Part shown: one piece after another, positions 10,688 to 61,925 of the stretch
Layout of the letters: each line of letters opens with the position of its first letter
How positions within the stretch are numbered: the stretch's first letter is position 1
Assembly (NCBI RefSeq): GCF_040954835.1
Contig: NC_090718.1
Coordinates: 15,577,532-15,641,531, forward strand
DNA length: 64,000 bases
Reading direction: 5' to 3'
Source of the DNA: Lepisosteus oculatus
Lineage: Eukaryota; Chordata; Actinopteri; Semionotiformes; Lepisosteidae
Made by a program: the position numbers and the translations under genes
The notes under the pieces: generated by a model
Told to the model about the DNA's origin: nothing
The model's input: only the letters and a program-made list of their open reading frames with translations
The model's database searches: none

Positions 10688-10952
10688 TTGTCCATGGATC
10701 CTATAAACAAAGTATGCACTGAATGTCATTAACTTATTCATAAGTAAATATAGACAGTTCTCATGTACAGGTTTAATAATGTAATGAATAATGTAAGTAA
10801 TCAATCATTAAGAAATGCCTTTCCAAGTTCTAAATTGCCATGTTAGCGATGAAGGCAGATATGAGCTTTTTAAAGTACTGTAGATTCTATATATTGAAGC
10901 CCAGACGTGTCCCAAATTACAGAATGTCCAAAGGTCTGCGCACTACAGGCCC

Positions 10953-13900
10953 TCACTGCTCTTCCTCCTCTTTTTGTTCCTCTTCCGTTGCCACCTCCTT
11001 GGTGAGCCGCACCTCCACCGTGTGCCCCTCTGCTGCCCTCACGTCGTAGGCGAAGTAGGAGACCCTGCGGGAGAGACCGGATTGACTACAGCAGTGGCTA
11101 CTGACCGCTGACCAGGCAGCAGCCTCTCTGCCACTGACACATCAGATATGACATCGGGCATCCTGGATATGAGTGTTTTAGTCTTCAAAGAGTTAAATCT
11201 CAGATCATCAGTGCTGATGGTGGCAGTGGGTGTGGCTGACCAGGACTGATCACGGCCTCACTGTGTCTCTGTGGAGTGTCAGGACTGATCACGGCCTCAC
11301 TGTGTCTCTGTGGAGAGTCAGGACTGGTCTCGGCCTCACTGTGTCTCTGTGGAGTGTCAGGACTGATCACGGCCTCACTATGTCTCTGTGGAGAGTCAGG
11401 ACTGATCACGGCCTCACTGTGTCTCTGTGGAGTGTCAGGACTGATCACGGCCTCACTATGTCTCTGTGGAGAGTCAGGACTGATCACGGCCTCACTGTGT
11501 CTCTGTGGAGAGTCAGGACTGGTCTCGGCCTCACTGTGTCTCTGTGGAGAGTCAGGACTGGTCTCGGCCTCACTGTGTGCCCTTACCCCCTGTCCCGAGG
11601 CAGCCTGGTGAGCAGCAGCTGGCTAAGATGGACGATCCTCTTCCTCCACTCCAGGTACAGATTGCGGCGGGTGTAGAACTCCAGCAGCAGGTGGCTGAAG
11701 TCGCCGTCGCGGTTCGCCGACACCATGAACCTGTACACCTTCCCCGGCTGGAACCTTACTGGAGCTGAGCTGGAGGCAAGCCACACGGGAACAAGACGGC
11801 CATTTTATTGTGCATTATTGAGAGCCTTCTTGTCATACAATCGTCAAACACTCTCAGAATTTTCACTAGCTTCAATTTGATCAAAGCCTTAAATCTCGAG
11901 ACACCCCAGTGTGCTCAGTGTGTAAGAATTAGAGAGGACACTGGTCGGCTACTTGGGCTACATCTTGTTTTTCGAGTGACCTGACCCCTGACCTCGCGTC
12001 TGCCCGCCACATGGCTTTAACTCGGGGCGCCCAGCTCCAGCTCACTGGCTCCGGTGGCCGCCTGGAAACGGCGCAGGCTCCCTCTGGTTTTCATTGATCA
12101 CTCACCCCGAGAGCAGCAGGGATGAGGTCTCCACGCCCCCGCCCCTCAGCTGGATGAAGAGGTACGCTCTCAGTGGCGTGACGCCCCCGACCTGGAACTC
12201 CAGCAGGAAAGGGGTGACTAGGACAGAGGGAGAGAGAGCTGGAGTGTCAGTCCTCAAAAGGCGTCAGCTGACATCACTCGAGCAGAGTGTCATCGGATCA
12301 GTAGACCATGCCGCCCCACCACCAGTCTATAACTAACCCACCCATTCTTTCACACTCTAGAGTGTTGCATGGCAAATCTTGCCCCATGTCAGTTCTCTCT
12401 CCTGGACATCCCACCATGCTGGATATCCTTCCTCCGACTTACACTACACTGTACTACAATCAAGTATAAACTGAAGGGATGGCAGGTCCAGGAAAGACGG
12501 CAGCTCTGGCCTGAACTACGTTTCCCAGAAAGCTGTATGTGTGTGTGGGGGGAGGGGTCGACCCCGATAACCTCAGTCACCTGACCTGTTGCTACACGCC
12601 AGTTGGTCAGGTGACAGTTTAAAACCCAGGAAGGAGAAGGTTTCAAAGGGCAGAAGAGGAGAAGCAAGAGAGGAGAGTGGACCTTGTGTGGTCCAGCAAC
12701 CCTGTAAAGGCCTAGTTAGGGACAGTTAGGGGTTTAGTCAGTAGCTCAGTCGAAGAAGATCTACTGTGTGCTTTTGTTTGCAGTTCCAATGGGTTTGATT
12801 TTGTGCCTGCTGTTAAATAAAGAACACAGATTGTTAGGTACCTTAAATCTGCTGTTGTGTCTCATTTCTGGGGACCCTTATTAAAAGAGTGCTGACTACA
12901 GGACCCGAACCCTTGGATGTGTCCTAAAACGAGCAGCTTTCCAGTTGTTGTGTTTAAATATGTATTTGATCTTGTACCGTGTGTCTGAAGTAGCCTGATC
13001 CTTGTGATCGGTTATCAATTACTCTGCCCTGTTGATGGGCTGGGAGGGTGTGGCTCACCACAGAAAGGCGGGGCAGAGGTGACGTCCAATAGCGCGGTGA
13101 GCTGCTGAAACGGGACCGGGCGCTCAGCTGCGACCCAGCTGGTGTTGTAGCCTGACAGAGGGGGGACAGGAAGCATTAGTGTCATTCCTTCTATCGCAGG
13201 AAGTCAGGACATTATCAAGCAAAACACTGATGGAGTGGTACTGAGGAACTGTGAAACAGTCTCATGATATCAAGGATTCAGTGTCAGATACCTTGGTCTC
13301 AGTGTCATGATGTTTCAGTGTGTCCGTGTCAGTATGTTGGTGTCAGTGTGGCACAGTTTCAGTGTCAGGAGCAGAGTTTCTCCCTGTCTCGGTGTGTCAG
13401 GAGCTGAGGTTCTCCCTGTCTCGGTGTGTCAGGAGCAGAGTTTCTCCCTGTCGCGGTGTGTCAGGAGCTGAGGTTCTCCCTGTCGCGGTGTGTCAGGAGC
13501 TGAGGTTCTCCCTGTCTCGGTGTGTCAGGAGCAGAGGTTCTCCCTGTCTCTGTGTGTCAGGAGCTGAGGTTCTCCCTGTCTCTGTGTGTCAGGAGCTGAG
13601 GTTCTCCCTGTCGCGGTGTGTCAGGAGCTGAGGTTCTCCCTGTCGCGGTGTGTCAGGAGCTGAGGTTCTCCCTGTCGCGGTGTGTCAGGAGCTGAGGTTC
13701 TCCCTGTCGCGGTGTGTCAGGAGCTGAGGTTCTCCCTGTCGCGGTGTGTCAGGAGCTGAGGTTCTCCCTGTCGCGGTGTGTCAGGAGCTGAGGTTCTCCC
13801 TGTCGCGGTGTGTCAGGAGCAGAGGTTCTCCCTGTCTCTGTGTGTCAGGAGCTGAGGTTCTCCCTGTCGCGGTGTGTCAGGAGCTGAGGTTCTCCCTGTC

Positions 13901-16900
13901 GCGGTGTGTCAGGAGCTGAGGTTCTCCCTGTCGCGGTGTGTCAGGAGCTGAGGTTCTCCCTGTCTCTGTGTGTCAGGAGCAGAGTTTCTCCCTGTCGCGG
14001 TGTGTCAGTGGTCAGTCCTCTCGGCGTCGGTGCTGTCTCTCTCACCCAGCTGTGGGCAGGCGTGCAGGCCCGCCGTGTGGCAGTGTGTGCACTGGCCTCT
14101 CTCGAAGCCGTGGCGCGAGAGGCAGGGGAAGGCGAAGAGAGGGCAGTGGGAGCGGATGGAGCTGGTGAAGATCTGGTGAGCCCTCCAGTGGCTGCACAGC
14201 ACGTACCTCTCCCCTGAAACGAGACACAGCACAGGCCTGACCCAGCTCCCCTGGACCGCCTGGCCAGGAGCGGAGGGCCCCGCCGCGCACCCGCTGTCTC
14301 GGGGCGGTCGCTGTACAGAGTGCTGGACAAACGTGGACGAAGTGGGCAGGGAGGGGCGCAGGTGCGAGTCCTGCACGACCCCCGGAGCTGGGGTGGGGAG
14401 GGGCTGAACACAGGCCCCGGAGCTCAGATTTCGGGGCTCCCAGTCTCCCGGGTGACGGAAACACTCACGGTCCAGGAGGCCGGGGGGGCAGCCGGGCAGC
14501 TGGTGGCCCTTGCCGATGTAGAAGTCCACGTGGCCCAGGGGCCGTGCGGAGCCCAGGGCCGCCACCGGCTCGTTGGCTGGAAAACAAAGGGCAGCAGGCG
14601 TGAGCGGACTGGAGCAGCTCCGCCAGCACACGGCTGTCTTCCTCTGGCTCCTGCTGTGACAGGCGGGGAGACAGACACTTTATTCTCCACTACTGTGGAA
14701 ATCCGACTTTGGCTTCCCCCAAGGAAGCACAAAACACGCAAGCAACACGCAAGAGTCGCATAAAATCATATGAAATCACCACAACAGTATGTGATACACA
14801 AATAAACAGGAAGTGGTGGGACATTTACACAGCTTCACTGAGCACATTGCAGTAGGGACAAAAGACTTCTTATGAATGTTTGTATTTGAACTGGGTTCCC
14901 TGTACCGTCTCCCACATAGGAGTGCTGTGACTTGAGAGAGGCTTGTGCGTGTGGGGGCGGCTGTGATGCTCCTCGTCGTTCTGAGAACTGTATTGTGATA
15001 TAAATCGCAGAGCCGGGGCTGCTGTTTCCCCGTTAAAGGAAGGGCTGGGAGGTGTGCTCTTTCTGAACAGAACTATTTCTGCTCTTCTGTGTTTCCCTCT
15101 CTCCCCTGCCTCTTCAGCGCCAGTGAAGAGATGGCTGCAGGGCCCCACCGAGGAAAGTCTCCCTGTCCTCCTGGCTCGTTTGTACACGTCAGCTGGTCAG
15201 CGAGCCCCTTCCACCACATGGCATGTTGTGCTGTGTAAAGACACGTTTCTTCCTCAGGCTGTTTCTCCGAGAGCAAGGGACTCACGTCTGAAGTTGGCGT
15301 GAATAACGTCCACGAACTGAGCGTCGGACCAGTCCAGCCCGACGCTGGGGCCAGCCTCTGTGAACTCGGGTCCGAATGGGTCCAGTCCTGGGAATAAAAC
15401 CAAAAGCAGGCAGGTCAATTTCCTACCCTGCAGATCTCTCGTTCACTGCTCTCTCGCACACATACACACGCATTTCCTGCGTAAACAATCGCATTTTGTT
15501 CCTAAATTCATCATGCAGGCCACTAAAACCTGACAGACATTTGGAGCTCCTGTCTGGGAGCAGTGTCTGATGATCCTCTTGGATCAGGGAATTCTCCCCG
15601 CTTTTCCTAGAAGAAGTAATTGTTCTTTGCATTTGGAAGAAAGGGGAGACAGCTCTTTCTGGTGGGTGAATGCAAGTGCACTGCTGTGGTTTGACTGAGG
15701 TTGGAGTAAATGGATCCCAACAAGGATAATATAGAGTGAGGCGCCATAAGAATAAAAACTGCGAAGGTATTAAATTATTAAGTTGGCTAATAAACTAAAA
15801 ACCCGGCGCTAGAGAGCTCTAAAGCGTCTGACGACAACAACAGCCAATTAGGCTACGGCTACGCATGCACCGCCCCCTACATTTACATCACTTTCTTATT
15901 GGTCACAAAAGATACAGTGAGCCAATCGCAAATCACAAACGATGAAAAAAGCAAACAAGTAACATTAAAAAGCAAATCATGTAATGCAAACAAGAGAAAT
16001 AAAATCTTCAATTTCTTTGGTCTGTATGGGTAGGTCTGGGACCAATCAGGGTGGGTCTGGGCCCGTGGCTCCACCCCTGCAAACCAATTTTGGATCCGAT
16101 CTCCTCTCCGGTGTGTCCGGGAGGCTCTGTCCTTACCCGTAATCCTCCCCAGACAGCCGCGCAGGGCAGCCCCAGCATTCCCTGCGATGTGAGCGCCGAC
16201 TCCGAAGCCGATCAGATGGATCGTCTCAGCTGAGGAACCACGGGCCTGGAGAAGAGACCCACCATCAGCCAGCCCTGCCCCTGAGACGCACCCGCCTCCC
16301 ACGTCTCCCAGGCAGAGCCGGAAAATTGTCGAAGCCAAACAAGACTCCCGTCAGCCCTGTGCTGAAAACTGTCTCTTCTTTCCTGGAATTAAGGACGTGA
16401 CCCTTCCGAGTGACTATTCCTAGTGACTGATCTAAGGCACGTGTACACATTCCTTTAAAATGTCAGGCCTTTAAAATAAGATGAAGAGGCTTCCAAAACA
16501 CTGCTTGATTGCAGGTCCAGGTTCCCCTGCAGGTGCTGATCGAGACGTGGCCAGGCCCTGCTCGCCTGCCCTCCCACACGGCCCCCCGCGAACACAGAGC
16601 CCCGACTCACCAGCAGCGCCCGGATCAGACAGGCCAGCTTCCTGCCCGCCTGCCTGGCGGTGGGCACCAGGCCGCGCCCGCGAGGGGACAGCCAGTCCAC
16701 AGCCAGGACGTTGAGCCGCTGGGTGGAGAACAGCTCTCGGGCCAGCTGGCCCACCCACTGGGGCCGCACCTGGGGGGGCCGCCGGCCATGCACGATCAGC
16801 ACGCTGGGGAGCCGGGGGTCCCAGGGGTACGCCCCGAGCCCCCCTGGTGCCGTCATGTTGAGGGGGCGCCCGCAGGGGCCGCCCTCAGCCGCGAACCCCA

Positions 16901-18341
16901 GCATTCTCACCTCCAGGGCGGGTGGGGCCACGGAGAGGAAGTCGGGGCATTGTGAGGCCCCGGTGCCTGTTGGGGTTAAAGGTCAGGGTCAGGCTTCCGT
17001 CACAGTCACAGTCCTTCAGGCTACAGACCACCTGCACATCCTCCAGGAGTTGCCTTGCGCCCCCGGCTGGACTCCCTCCCCCAAGCTGAGAGTGTCCCGT
17101 GGGGCTGCTGATCAGCCACAAGAACAATCACAGCACAGAAAACAGCGCTTGTGCCTTTAAAAAAGACAGAGTAGTAGTTCATTGAACAATTTCCGGTACA
17201 AGGTTAGTTGGGTAACCTTGGATAACTAGTCGCGCAGAAACGCGAGGGACCCTATCAGTAAGAAAATCAAAAAGGCACTAGCTGTAAACCCAAAAACACA
17301 ACAGATTCAACAGGAGGAAAGCCTTCTGGAGGCCAGGCTAGCTCCCTGCCCTAGACTGGCTAACAACTAAGCAAAGAAAAACCCGGAACAAATCCAAAAC
17401 ATGAAGAAAAAGGAGTAAAATACAGAGAAATCTAGAGCACAAACAAAACACAGTCTCATGCGAGGGCTTTTTCAAGACTCCGGATGTTGCGGCTCAGGGC
17501 TCTGTAGATCTCTCTGGGATCTCGCTCAAGAACTCATCGATCAGCTGGAGCTCCAGAGCAGATATGACTTCAGACTTGACCTCCAGCACACAGAGGGCAG
17601 AGCAGGGTGCCCTCCCAGCGGGGGGGTGGAGTCTCACGAAACAGTTGAGAAGTGAAATAGAGAGGGCCCGTGCTGTAGGGCACTCTGGAGCTCACACCGC
17701 AGACAGGCCCGGAAAATCCCCTTCAAGCCTGTCCTGCAGGAATCGCTGCTTAGGGTTGAAGCTACCCTGGTGAATCACTGAAGCAGGTATAAAACTTAAA
17801 ACACTGAGCACTCCTGATTCAGACACACCTGAACACTGGGTACCAACATAGTTAACGCACCACCTCTGGACACCCATAATTTACCAGACTCCATTGAGGC
17901 CCAACGAGACTCTGGGCACCCACAAATCAGACCCAGCCAGACCTGCACTATGCCCGATACCATGTTACTACGATTGGATTTTAAATTTATCTTGCCTTTT
18001 TGAGGCAACCGAAACACTTCATGAAGTAATATCTTGAGAAAATATCACATAAAACCATGTAGCAAAGCTAGCAAGTATGCACAAAACAACATGCTTTTAA
18101 GGATTTTTGCTATTTTTACATTATCATAAGGGATGTAGAATCCCTAGGGAAAAAAACATGCACATCCCTTCCAATTCTGATATCAGCTCCCGAAGGTGTT
18201 ACAACGATCAGCACAGTTGCATAGCCACACCTGACCGAAGATCTTGCCAGTCATGGCCGAGACCCCTCACGTCTTTCAGAGGGAGACCGTACCTGCGAGA
18301 GGTCCAGGGAGAAAGCAGAACAGCCACAGCGTCCGAAACAT
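10953..18341 (-). CDS. Secreted pancreatic-lipase-family protein lacking the catalytic serine (PLA1A/LIPH-like pseudolipase)
   Basis: Ten exons: 18293-18341, 16611-16966, 16137-16245, 15286-15387, 14469-14576, 14046-14213, 13059-13151, 12106-12217, 11587-11769, 10953-11064. They give one open frame of 463 codons plus stop, the usual family length. Residues 1-17 are a signal peptide (MFRTLWLFCFLPGPLA). The alpha/beta-hydrolase domain follows, with the oxyanion-side HG motif (VLIVHG), a conserved Asp174 (GLDPFGP) and His250 (CSHWRA). The nucleophile elbow reads GFGVG: Gly150 replaces the expected Ser of GxSxG. The lid between cysteines (CPPGLLDRERYVLC) is short, as in phosphatidylserine/phosphatidic-acid-selective PLA1 enzymes rather than triglyceride lipases. 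A PLAT-like C-terminal domain occupies about 310-450, ending in an acidic Glu-rich tail. N53 (NMT) is a possible glycosylation site. With one triad member missing, hydrolysis is unlikely; a binding or carrier role is inference. The exact orthologue is not recognised. Confidence 0.88.
11240..11580. repeat. 39-bp minisatellite, about nine copies
   Basis: Units start at about 11248 and repeat every 39 bases, differing mainly at GATCACGG versus GGTCTCGG and GTGTCAGG versus GAGTCAGG. The array is intronic in the lipase-like gene and ends a few bases from the splice donor of the exon at 11587-11769. Because 39 is a multiple of three it yields open frames on both strands; these are not genes. Confidence 0.95.
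12520..12900 (+). mobile_element. Possible solo LTR or other promoter-plus-poly(A) element (weak)
   Basis: A plus-strand block with a TATA-like TTTAAAA near 12618, a G/A-rich leader, AATAAA near 12815 and an end in TGACTACA is laid out like a retroelement LTR. It lies in the intron between the lipase-like exons 12106-12217 and 13059-13151. I cannot see target-site duplications or a matching second copy, so this is a suggestion only. Confidence 0.25.
13361..14015. repeat. 32-bp minisatellite, about 20 copies
   Basis: The GTGTCAGGAGC block recurs every 32 bases from 13362 to 13970, with small variants (GAGCAGAG or GAGCTGAG, TCGCGG or TCTCTG). It lies in the lipase-like intron just 3' of the exon at 14046-14213 in gene sense. 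The Ser/Leu/Cys/Arg-rich ORFs across it are repeat artefacts. Confidence 0.95.
16967..18292 (-). other. First intron of the lipase-like gene, nothing recognised
   Basis: About 1.3 kb between the signal-peptide exon and the second exon. No repeat array, RNA gene or convincing coding stretch is visible. Confidence 0.4.
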
Positions 18342-20947: not shown

Positions 20948-39156
<18,209 letters not shown>

Positions 39157-47700: not shown

Positions 47701-50700
47701 CTGTACTCACCATCTCATCCTCCATACCGTTGACTCTCTCTGCATTGTAAATGACCTCTTTAACATCCAGAGACTCATCAATCACCTGTCAACACAGACA
47801 GGCAGGGATGTGTTACTCTTCTCTTCTCTGGACACATGGGTAGCACAGAGTGTGTACGTGAGTGTGTTAGTGCATGGGGAGGGGAGGGGGGTACAGGGTT
47901 TCAACACAAAAACTACAACCACCACAGAAACACAGCATGCATTTCAGTCCTCTCTTCCCTCAAACATCATGGGCTCACAACCTCATCTTCAGCTGCCCCT
48001 TGAAATATTGGCAGTACGTGATCCTGCTCCAAATCAGCTAACGTTGAGTGCAGTCATTCTAGAGGACCTGGAAGCCAGTAAAGTACTTTGCATGATCAAA
48101 ATCTCAGTCTTGATCATGGCAAGAAGCGCTCAGTACAGCACAGAGCCCTCAGGACCGAGCTGGCAATCTTGGAAATAGGGCAGGATCCTCAGGAAAGTGC
48201 ACAGTATCTCAGAGAAAGGGAAGAGCCCTCAAGAAAGTGCTGGGGATCTCGGAGACAGCACAGCACAAAGCACTCAGAAGACTTGTGGTGATCTCAGACA
48301 CAGAACAGAGCCCTCTGGAAACTGCTGGGGATCTGAGAGACAACACAGTGCACAGCCCTCAGGAGAGTGTTGGTAATCTCAGAGACGACAGAGTGCACTA
48401 CTCTCAGGAGAGTGTTGGTAATCCTGGAGACAGCACAGCGCAGAGCCATCAGGAGAGTGCTGGTAATCTCACAGAAAGCACAGAGCCCTCAGGAGAGTGT
48501 TGGTAATCTCAGAGACAGCACAGAGCCCTCAGGAGAGTGTTGGTGATCTCAGAGACAGCACAGCGCATAGCCCTCATGAGAGTGTTGGTATCGTCAGAGA
48601 CAGCACAGCGCACAACCCTCAGGTGCGTGTTGACGATCACAGAGACTAGACAGCGCAGCCCTCAGGAGAGTGTTGGTGATCTCAGAGACAGCATAGAGCC
48701 CTCGGGAGAGGGTTGGTAATCTCAGAGACAGCACAGAGTCCTCAGGAGAGTATTGGTGATCTTAGAGACAGCTCAGAGTCTTCAGCAGAGTGTTGGTGAT
48801 CTCAGAGACAGCATAGCGCACAACCCTTAGGAGGTCGTTGGTGATCTCAGAGACAGCATAGAGCCCTCAGGAGAGTGTTGGTAATCTCAGAGACAGCACA
48901 GAGTACTCAGGAGAGTATTGGTGATTTTAGAAACAGCTCAGAGTCTTCAGGAGAGTGTTGGTAATCCCAGAGAAAGCACAGTGCAGAGTCCTCAAGAGAG
49001 TATTGGTGATCTCAGAGACCAGACAGCGCAGCCCTCCGGAGAGTGTTGGTAATCTCAGAGACGGCACAGAGCCCTCAGGAGAGTGTTGGTAATCTCAAGA
49101 GACAGCAGAGCACAACCCTCAGGAGCGTGTTGATGATCTCAGACCGGACAGCACAGCCCTCAGGAGAGTGTTGGTAATATCAGAGACAGCACAGAGTCCT
49201 CGGGAGATTGTTGGTATCTGAAGAGACAGCACAGAGCCCTCAGGAGAGTGTTGGTGATCACAGAGAAAGGATAGTGTACAGCCCTCAAGAGCATTGGTGA
49301 TCTCTGAGAAAGCACAGTGCAGAGCTTTCAGGATAGTGTTGGTGATCTCAGAGACCGGACAGTGCTGCCCTCAGGAGAGTCTTGGTAATCTCAGAGACAG
49401 CACAGAGCCCTCAGGAGAGTGTTGGTGATCTGTGAGAAAGGAGAGCGCAGGGCCCTTAGGAAACTGCTGGGAATCTGAGAGACAGCATATTGCACAACCG
49501 TCAGAAGACTGTTGGTAATCTCAGAGACAGCTCAGTGTCCTCAGGAGAGTGTTGGTAACCCCAGAGACAGCACAGAGTCTTCAGGAGAGTGTTGGTGATC
49601 TCAGAGACAGCACATCGCACAGCCCTCAGGAAGTCGTTGGTGATCTCAGAGACAGCATAGAGCCCTCGGGAGAGGGTTGGTAATCTCAGAGACAGCACAG
49701 AGTCCTCAGGAGAGTATTGGCGATCTTAGAGACAGCTCAGAGTCTTCAGCAGAGTGTTGGTGATCTCAGAGACAGCATAGCGCACAACCCTTAGGAGGTC
49801 GTTGGTGATCTCAGAGACAGCATAGAGCCCTCAGGAGAGTGTTGGTAATCTCAGAGACAGCACAGAGTACTCAGGAGAGTATTGGTGATTTTAGAAACAG
49901 CTCAGAGTCTTCAGGAGAGTGTTGGTAATCCCAGAGAAAGCACAGTGCAGAGTCCTCAAGAGAGTATTGGTGATCTCAGAGACCAGACAGCGCAGCCCTC
50001 CGGAGAGTGTTGGTAATCTCAGAGACGGCACAGAGCCCTCAGGAGATTGTTGGTAATCTCAGAGACAGCGTAGTGCGCAACCATCAGGAGAGTGTTGGTA
50101 ATCCCAGAGACAGCACAGAGTTTGCAGGACACTGCTGGGGATCTCAGATACAGCACAGAGCCCTCAGGACACTGCCGGGGATCTCAGAGGCAGTACAGCA
50201 CAGAGCCCTAAGAGAGTTTTGATTATCTCAGAGACAGCACAAGCCTCAGGAGAGTGTTCATGATCTGAGAGACAGCATAGCGCACAGCCCTCAGTATAGA
50301 CCTGGGGATCTCAAGAGAAAGCACAGCACAGAGCCCTCAGGACAGAGACATCACAGCTCAGAGCCCTTAGGATGAATTTGAAGATCTCAGGACAGTACAG
50401 CAGAGAGCTCTCAGGACAGAACTGGTGGTCTCAGAGAAAACGCAGAGCCGTCATGGCATCTGATTTTAGAGAAAGAGACAGTAGAGCGCAGAGCCTGGGG
50501 TTCTTGTATGGCTGTAGAATGTTTAGAAAAGTGTGTGATTTAAAATGACTGATTTCCATCTGTGAAAAATTTAGGAAAATTTGAGACATAATTTTGGGAA
50601 AAGTGTGGAAATCTTAGTATGAAAATAATAGTGCTCGGTCATCTGTCGAGGGCGCAGCACACCATCACAAATACGGTTTGTGATGAGAATATGAGTAGTG

Positions 50701-59700: not shown

Positions 59701-60556
59701 AGTCTTGACAGATTCACACATAACCAGGTCCACTCCTATACCATCACATAACGTACTACAGGCTGTATGGCTAAAAGACACAAGTCACCTTCCCTTGTAT
59801 GATAATAGAGAACTAGTGCATTGACTTCAATTTAATGAAAATAACTGAATTTAAATAACATTCATATTTGAGAAGAGGCCTGAGAATGACAGCCCTGCGA
59901 ACTGCAGCCCAGCTGTCTTCAAGCGAGCTCCCTCTCCAGGCACAGCGGCAGCACACTGTGTCGTTCATGTCTCTCCGGACGTAGTGGAGCTCAGATTACA
60001 TGACTTTAATACTGTGCTTGCACATAACTGTCTAAACAGCGCCTATTGCAGAACACACCTTGCAGACTTACGGGTGAGGAACAGCTGAGATCCTGGGATC
60101 TTTGCGTTAATATATAGCTGAATGCACAAAGCACCACCAGGCTTTGGATTCCTTGTATTCTGGGGAAGGAAGCACCATAGGAACTTCAGAGGAAGGAACT
60201 GTTTCCTGGAGTTTTTAAAAACCCTACTTGGGTGTTTACGCTCCCTAGCATGGTTTTAATCTGGAATGAAATGACTGATGTCCCACAGAGTGTTCCATTC
60301 CCAGGACATGGGAGAGTCCGGAAAAAAGTTTAATGAAGATGCTGAAATAAAAGATGAGGCTATGGCAGCGTTGGATCAGAAACAGACTGGAGCCAAGATC
60401 CACTCCGGAGTGGAGATTTTGTCTGACCTGGGACTTCATCTGAGCTGCCTTCTCCGGGTCCACAGCCAGGACGTGCTGGTAGTGCCGGACGGTGTGCTGG
60501 CGGTCCTTGTTCTCCGCTCGGACATAGCGCTTCAGGGCCTGGAGGATACGGTGAGG
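44797..60556 (-). CDS. aplp2: APLP2 (amyloid-beta precursor-like protein 2), 3' part, partial
   Basis: Eight exons: 60428-60556, 59451-59550, 57428-57592, 54345-54380, 51904-51986, 47711-47785, 46117-46272, 44797-44898. They join in frame for 281 residues plus stop. The first two carry the end of the E2 helical domain ([45 protein letters not shown]). A linker exon follows ([14 protein letters not shown]), then a 36-base exon, the juxtamembrane exons, the membrane span ([20 protein letters not shown]) and a cytoplasmic tail with the GYENPTY sorting/adaptor signal. The final 33 residues are nearly identical to human APLP2, and [12 protein letters not shown] separates it from APP. The family is shed by alpha/beta-secretases, then cut by gamma-secretase; adaptors such as Fe65 bind NPTY. 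The upstream exons (signal peptide, E1, acidic, Kunitz) are outside the window. Confidence 0.97.
45941..46075. repeat. 53-bp tandem repeat, about 2.5 copies
   Basis: The CGGAGGAGCCGTG block starts at 45941, 45994 and 46047. It is intronic, directly next to the donor of the APLP2 transmembrane exon 46117-46272. Confidence 0.9.
48170..50250. repeat. Large 40-bp minisatellite (about 2 kb) in APLP2 intron
   Basis: The basic unit is about 40 bases (CTCAGGAGAGTGTTGGTAAT followed by CTCAGAGACAGCACAGAGCC), with 46-50 base variants carrying GCGCACAACC. Several dozen copies fill the intron between exons 47711-47785 and 51904-51986. A higher-order duplication is present (see findings). ORFs in it are artefacts. 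Confidence 0.95.
50251..51120. other. APLP2 intron, unique sequence between minisatellite blocks
   Basis: The first 250 bases still hold decayed units of the 40-bp repeat. The remainder is AT-rich with no recognisable feature. Confidence 0.5.
51121..51440. repeat. Detached block of the 40-bp minisatellite family
   Basis: Units such as GATCTCAGAGACAGCGCAA and CCTCAGGACACTGCTGAGG match the array at 48170-50250 after about 900 bases of other sequence. Confidence 0.85.
52000..57420 (-). other. APLP2 introns flanking the 36-base exon, nothing else recognised
   Basis: Apart from the exon at 54345-54380 these introns hold no array or gene that I can support. A purine-rich stretch lies at 54200-54480. 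A run of T at 56425-56440 followed by unique sequence gives no mobile-element signature I recognise. Confidence 0.35.
54345..54380 (-). other. aplp2: APLP2 36-base cassette exon controlling a glycosaminoglycan site
   Basis: The exon is exactly 12 codons, phase 1 at both ends (acceptor CGGCTAG, donor AAAG|GTTGGT), and ends in MKK like the human cassette exon. Including it gives ESEGALSDPP...MKKGSGMSG. Skipping it joins ESE directly to GSGMSG, creating the acidic-x-GSG context used for chondroitin sulfate attachment in mammalian L-APLP2. Conservation of size, phase and site is seen directly; the alternative splicing itself is inferred. Confidence 0.75.
58796..58995 (+). mobile_element. tRNA-derived SINE-like element in APLP2 intron
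   Basis: It has a B-box-like GGGTTCAGACCCC (about 58839), a head similar to the one at 21712 (TGTGGGTTCAGA), a unique body and an A-rich tail ending TAAATAAG. It lies between APLP2 exons 57428-57592 and 59451-59550. Confidence 0.6.
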
Positions 60557-60589
60557 CTGCAGGAGAGGTGAGAGGAGTGTGAGAGACAA

Positions 60590-61925
60590 CACATAGGAAC
60601 ACCCTGACAAAGTACTGGCCTGGTGACCACAGACTGGACCTAGGAACAGGACACAGGCAAGCCTGCATATCTAGAGTATAGGCTCAGTGACCTTACTGTG
60701 GACAGAGAAACTGGACACAGGCAGACCTGGTTGTCCAGAGAGGACGGGGTTAGACATCACAGTCTATATAGAAACTGGACAGAGGCAGACCTGGCTGTCC
60801 AGAGAGGACAGGCTCAGTGGCCACAGACTGGACCTAGGAACAGGACACAGGCAGACCTGGACGTCCACAGCGGATAGACTTAGTGACCACAATCTGTATA
60901 TAAAAAATGGGACATAGACAGACCTGGCTATATAGAGTACAAGCTCACTGGCCACAGTCTGGACATAGAACCTCAGTCAGTGTATAGAAACGGAGGCAGA
61001 TCAGGCTTTCCAGAGAGGACAGGCTCAGTAACCACAGCCAGTATATCAATATTGGACACGGACAGATCTGGCTGTCCAGGCTTAGAGACCACAGTCTGCG
61101 TATTGAAACTGGACACTGGCAGACCAGGCTGTCCAGAGAGGACTGGCTCAGTGACCACAGCCTGACCTTAGAAAATGGACACAGGTAGACCTTGCTGTCC
61201 AGAGACGACGGGCTTAGTGACCTCAGTCAGTGTATAGAAACAGAGGCAGACCAGGCTTTCCAGAGAGGACAGGCTCAGTGACCACAGATTGGACATAGAA
61301 ATTGGACACAGGCAGATCTGGATGTCCAGAGAGGACATGCTCAGTAGCCACTGACTGGACATACAAAGTGGACAGAGGTAGACCTGGCTTTCCAGAGAGG
61401 ACAGTCTCATTGACCATAGCCTGGCCATAGAAACTGGACACAGACAGACTTTTGGCTGTCCCAAGAGTACAGACTTGGTGACTACAGACTGGACATAGAA
61501 ACTGGAGATGGGCACACCTCTCTGTCCACAGAGAACAGACTCAGTCATCACAATGTGGACATAGGAACTTGACACGGGCAGACCTGGCTGTCCAGAGAGG
61601 ACAGTCTCAGTGAGCATAGACAGGACACAGGTAGACCTAAGTGTCCAGAGAGGACTGGCTCAGTTATCACAGCTTGGACAGCCTGACCATAGTGGTGGAC
61701 ACCAGTAGATCTGGCTGTCCAGAGAGGTCAGGTGTAGTGATAACAGACAGGCAGGCCTGGCTATCTGGTGTTCAGATGGCCATAGACTGGACATAGAAGC
61801 TGGAAACAGATGGACCTCAGTGTCCGGAGAGTTCAGTCTCATTGATAACAGACTGGACATTGAAACTAGATACAGGCAGACCAGATTCTCCAGAGAGGAC
61901 AGACTGGTCATAGAAACAGGTGAGA
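60590..61925. repeat. About 65-bp minisatellite, 19-20 copies, in APLP2 intron
   Basis: Blocks such as CTGGACACAGGCAGACCTGG and CCAGAGAGGACAGGCTCAGT recur every 64-66 bases with moderate divergence. The array starts just upstream (gene sense) of exon 60428-60556. The minus-strand Ser/Leu/Val/Cys-rich ORFs reading through it are artefacts. Confidence 0.93.

Follow-up and report, generated by a model that had tools for sequence, protein, structure and literature searches.

Does the lipase-like gene carried on the minus strand of this Lepisosteus oculatus window (the whole stretch of DNA analyzed, 64,000 nucleotides) still encode an enzyme when a glycine stands where lipases have their nucleophile serine, and if not, is its reading frame being kept for another purpose or is it a gene on its way to decay? 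We addressed this by examining the gene model and its active site, the placement of the protein among lipases, and the chance that a frame free of constraint would have remained intact.

The gene model and the nucleophile elbow

The lipase-like gene runs from 18341 to 10953 and contains 1392 coding bases in ten exons (Table 1). The original prediction of a ten-exon, 463-residue open frame with proper splice sites was reproduced: all nine introns begin with GT and end with AG, there is no internal stop, and no disabling change was found in the coding bases or at the 18 splice ends. Candidate polyadenylation signals, located by plain motif match, lie near 10777, 10687 and 10609. A tblastn search using the model and seven relatives detected no further lipase copy in the window: outside the gene, no match was better than an E value of 0.66.

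Table 1. Exons of the lipase-like gene and the position of codon 150 within the window
Feature	Position	Strand	Content
Exon 1	18293..18341	-	Start codon; N-terminus hydrophobic, resembling a signal peptide by eye
Exon 2	16611..16966	-	Residues 17-135; Arg78 after HG, aromatic in 7/7 references; Tyr after VDW, present in 7/7 references, absent
Exon 3	16137..16245	-	Nucleophile elbow GFGVG; boundaries ag|GCCCGT...TTACGG|gtaagg
Codon 150	16201..16203	-	TCC on the plus strand, GGA (Gly) on the coding strand; Ser in 7/7 comparison lipases
Exon 4	15286..15387	-	Asp174 (GLDP) and beginning of the beta9 loop
Exon 5	14469..14576	-	Beta9 loop continued (19 residues in all); Cys235, the first cysteine of the lid
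Exon 6	14046..14213	-	Second lid cysteine, Cys248; His250; more cysteine pairs
Exon 7	13059..13151	-	Lipase domain ends here
Exon 8	12106..12217	-	C-terminal region; no Pfam or PDB lipase match
Exon 9	11587..11769	-	C-terminal region; no Pfam or PDB lipase match
Exon 10	10953..11064	-	Last part of the C-terminal region, with acidic tail and stop codon

The coding sequence is GC-rich (GC3 84%), and the mature protein uses Arg over Lys, 39 to 6, with a net charge of +7. Two introns contain minisatellites, one in intron 6 (13362-14008; 32-base unit, 20.2 copies, 95% matches) and the other in intron 9 (11241-11578; 39-base unit, 8.7 copies, 94% matches). On the same strand as the lipase gene lie ST14/matriptase-like exons (20948-32360), with further Trypsin and LDLa Pfam matches; the last trypsin exon has ST14 as its best PDB match (E value 1.1e-24). 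An amyloid-precursor E2 exon, also on the minus strand (60245-60670), has APLP2 as its best PDB match (E value 4e-23). In humans, ST14 and APLP2 are neighbors on 11q24, where no lipase is known. The left neighbor (0.3-6 kb), which is reminiscent of NFRKB, gave no Pfam or PDB match for the pieces tried. Elsewhere in the window, diverged tandem repeats fill about 2 kb (48187-50342), with periods of 40, 85, 125 and 165 bases over the same stretch, and a plus-strand open frame of 223 residues (34141-34812) is by eye LINE reverse transcriptase-like and has no Pfam match.

The replacement of the catalytic Ser by Gly at codon 150, which the original prediction had described, was borne out by the comparison lipases, and the elbow therefore lacks the Ser nucleophile of active lipases. 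It had further been argued that GGA lies at least two substitutions from Ser, and this is true of all six Ser codons; the second change may have been silent once Ser had become Gly. A single-base error at codon 150 was rejected, because no Ser codon can become GGA by one substitution. Because two changes separate GGA from Ser, one of them possibly silent following the change to Gly, Gly150 is probably long-standing, a double mutation being the exception. It is very improbable that the gene of this species carries Ser and that the Gly stems from a rare allele or from a mistake in sequencing or assembly: one assembled sequence is the sole source, but two wrong bases would be needed, the surrounding exon is intact, and independent active-site changes are present in other exons. 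We also looked for an alternative, Ser-bearing elbow exon using a set elbow pattern that allowed Ser or Gly, and in all frames of both strands of the window only the codon 150 site matched.

Without the serine no acyl-enzyme can form, and the Ser-dependent hydrolysis of the lipase family cannot run. Since the nucleophile Ser has been replaced by Gly, the protein, as judged from its sequence, is probably no longer an enzyme. Asp174 and His250 nevertheless align with the catalytic Asp and His of the references, and Cys235 and Cys248 align with the lid cysteines and enclose a lid of 12 residues, so that the claim that these elements and a short, disulfide-bounded lid are kept was confirmed; the cysteine pairs 272/283 and 286/294 are likewise kept in the alignment. 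The persistence of Asp174 and His250 would be expected if the protein had an enzymatic role independent of Ser150, for instance as a transferase or by way of another nucleophile, but there is no substitute Ser at the elbow, changes have also occurred at the oxyanion and groove positions, and we consider such an activity improbable. In addition to the changes listed for exon 2 in Table 1, Val151 occupies a position that is Leu in all seven references. Taken together, these data support an intact gene whose product is an apparently secreted lipase-fold protein without the nucleophile.

Placement within the lipase family

The protein belongs to the Pfam Lipase family (PF00151), which it matched over residues 69-310 with an E value of 8.5e-56 and 190.1 bits, against a curated cut-off of 27; a match to Abhydrolase_2 (E value 0.0081) was below the cut-off of that family. 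Fifteen PDB sequences were matched, the best being pancreatic lipase-related protein 2 (E value 1.9e-40), with lipoprotein lipase at 2.2e-33. Since LIPH, LIPI and PLA1A were absent among these 15, human sequences not drawn from a database record were used, and the LIPH copy agrees with published data at all 15 residues or sites tested against the text of PMC3482443. With the human sequences blastp gave 203 bits for LIPH, 194 for LIPI, 185 for PLA1A and 134 for LPL; the corresponding identities, which were calculated over different lengths, were 32.1%, 31.6%, 29.2% and 29.6%. PMC3482443 puts the identity among vertebrate LIPH proteins at 47-99% in its text; its abstract gives 56-97%. Because the protein shows only about 32% identity to LIPH, compared with that 47-99%, it does not resemble a typical orthologue of LIPH. 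When eight sequences were placed in a tree with LPL as the root, it fell beside PLA1A, with a support of only 48.

The protein resembles the LIPH/LIPI/PLA1A group in giving its top alignment scores of the compared set to these three and in having their lid length, 12 residues between the two lid cysteines, as opposed to 22-23 in LPL, 1bu8 and 1w52 and five in 1gpl. Like LIPH, for which the same number is published (PMC3482443), it is encoded by ten coding exons, and its three cysteine pairs match pairs 233/246, 270/281 and 284/292 of LIPH. It differs from the group in the Gly that replaces the nucleophile Ser and in its beta9 loop, which has 19 residues between His201 and His221 where the group has 13. 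The extra residues are located at the exon 4/5 junction; a shorter exon 5 that would give a 13-residue loop was considered and rejected, as inspection by eye found no fitting acceptor. According to PMC9031518, conventional lipases have a beta9 loop of 18-19 residues and the LIPH group one of 13. Pancreatic lipase-related protein 2 and lipoprotein lipase share with the protein the PF00151 fold and the loop length, and are its best PDB matches, but they have the Ser nucleophile and score lower than the LIPH group. On its sequence, then, the protein is a mixture that combines the short lid of the LIPH group with a beta9 loop of pancreatic type, and it lacks one feature by which the group is defined.

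The last 168 residues had no Pfam match up to an E value of 10 and three PDB matches with E values of 0.63-1, none of them a lipase. A PLAT-like domain, which had been predicted for this region, was thus not confirmed; its sole support is a blastp alignment with the human LIPH copy that extends as far as residue 389. PS-PLA1 is reported in PMC3482443 to be without the C-terminal cysteine pair, and the protein described here is also without it. Searches with a peptide pattern from exon 2 confirmed no relatives among 87 matching stretches in GTDB genomes or among five in IMG/VR contigs.

Retention or decay of the reading frame

To weigh decay against retention we used a neutral-decay model with assumed rates, in which a frame of this composition is exposed to 38.75 nonsense changes per unit K, to changes in 36 splice bases and in the start and stop codons, and to between 0 and 0.1 indels per substitution. 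Under this model an intact frame is expected at even odds only up to a K of 0.0038-0.0087, and the probability that the frame stays intact while codon 150 takes a second hit reaches at most 0.0005-0.0012. With the frame held by selection, the chance of a second hit in codon 150 alone is 0.025 at a K of 0.1. Comparison of 0.025 with 0.0005-0.0012 means that, at a K of 0.1, retention is some 20 to 50 times better supported by the model, which is a rough one and offers an argument that does not replace dN/dS.

We also asked how far the protein has departed from its relatives by counting, among eight sequences, the alignment columns in which all of the other sequences agree, restricted to columns that have six or more sequences present and are ungapped in the sequence under test. 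The protein breaks nine of 49 such columns (residues 71, 82, 150, 151, 176, 188, 227, 228 and 321). The counts for the others were 3/44 for LIPH, 6/47 for PLA1A, 0/41 for LIPI and 7/48 for LPL, and 0/41, 2/43 and 0/41 for 1bu8, 1w52 and 1gpl, these last three being lowered because the three PDB sequences are close relatives of each other. The departure is the largest of the eight, yet it is not far above those of LPL and PLA1A, both of which are active enzymes; what distinguishes it is that the nucleophile is among the changed columns. Its branch in the tree is also the longest, at 1.65, with LPL nearly equal at 1.59 and the rest shorter.

The main rival to retention is that constraint was relaxed after a lineage-specific loss, leaving a pseudogene in the making in which a stop or frameshift is yet to come. 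The long branch and the number of broken columns are what such a history would produce, and the persistence of Asp and His would follow from a recent loss. It is difficult to reconcile with the complete lack of disabling changes and with the small K over which a neutral frame would stay open, and we regard it as rather unlikely, although of real weight. The original statement that the gene is not simply decaying thus gains indirect support from the neutral-decay calculation and from the further active-site changes; that the protein is maintained is inferred, and the nine broken columns and the long branch fit relaxed constraint as well.

Because the chance under the neutral model is so low, we lean toward a retained, non-enzymatic secreted protein, a diverged paralogue of short-lid PLA1 type that lost hydrolysis with the change from Ser to Gly. 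The gene would be related in this way to LIPH, LIPI and PLA1A, the short-lid lipases of phospholipase A1 type in vertebrates, and its hydrolysis would have been lost when the nucleophile Ser became Gly, together with changes in the oxyanion hole and acyl groove. The loss would not be brand-new, and the frame would since have been kept open by selection. The folded, secreted protein may then bind lipid or a lipid surface but leave it uncleaved, the most likely ligand being phospholipid, as for its relatives.

Putative function and comparison with known systems

Extracellular binding of lipid or of an interface is the likeliest role that remains for a retained, non-enzymatic product, and we propose it as a putative one. 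If orthologues share the Gly, the gene would encode a secreted lipase-fold protein of vertebrates whose binding role is unexplored, and it would reveal which elements of the fold persist when catalysis is lost, namely the disulfides, Asp and His, while oxyanion and groove positions change. A search of the literature for pseudolipases and inactive lipases found nothing that matched, which is no proof that the gene has gone undescribed. It is tempting to speculate, though we think it unlikely, that a short-lid lipase branch beside ST14/APLP2 long ago turned into a secreted, non-enzymatic phospholipid-binder that many fishes share and mammals lack, which would make it the vertebrate equivalent of the lipid and yolk proteins that insects derived from lipases.

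The insect proteins are described in PMC7240578, according to which the catalytic motif has been lost in an average of 10% of the neutral and acid lipases of insects. Of the 58 lipases of one wasp, 11 are without the consensus triad and nearly all of the non-catalytic neutral ones are short-lidded, and binding or yolk roles have been proposed for insect non-catalytic lipases (PMC7240578). Other wasps have venom lipases that combine short lids with complete triads (PMC7240578), so that activity need not be lost where the lid is short. The non-catalytic neutral lipases and lipase-derived yolk proteins of insects resemble the protein described here in their lipase fold, their incomplete triad and, mostly in one wasp, their short lids; they differ in that the changed residue varies and is most often His, and they are set beside it by description only (PMC7240578). 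The parallel with the dead lipases of insects is one of analogy only.
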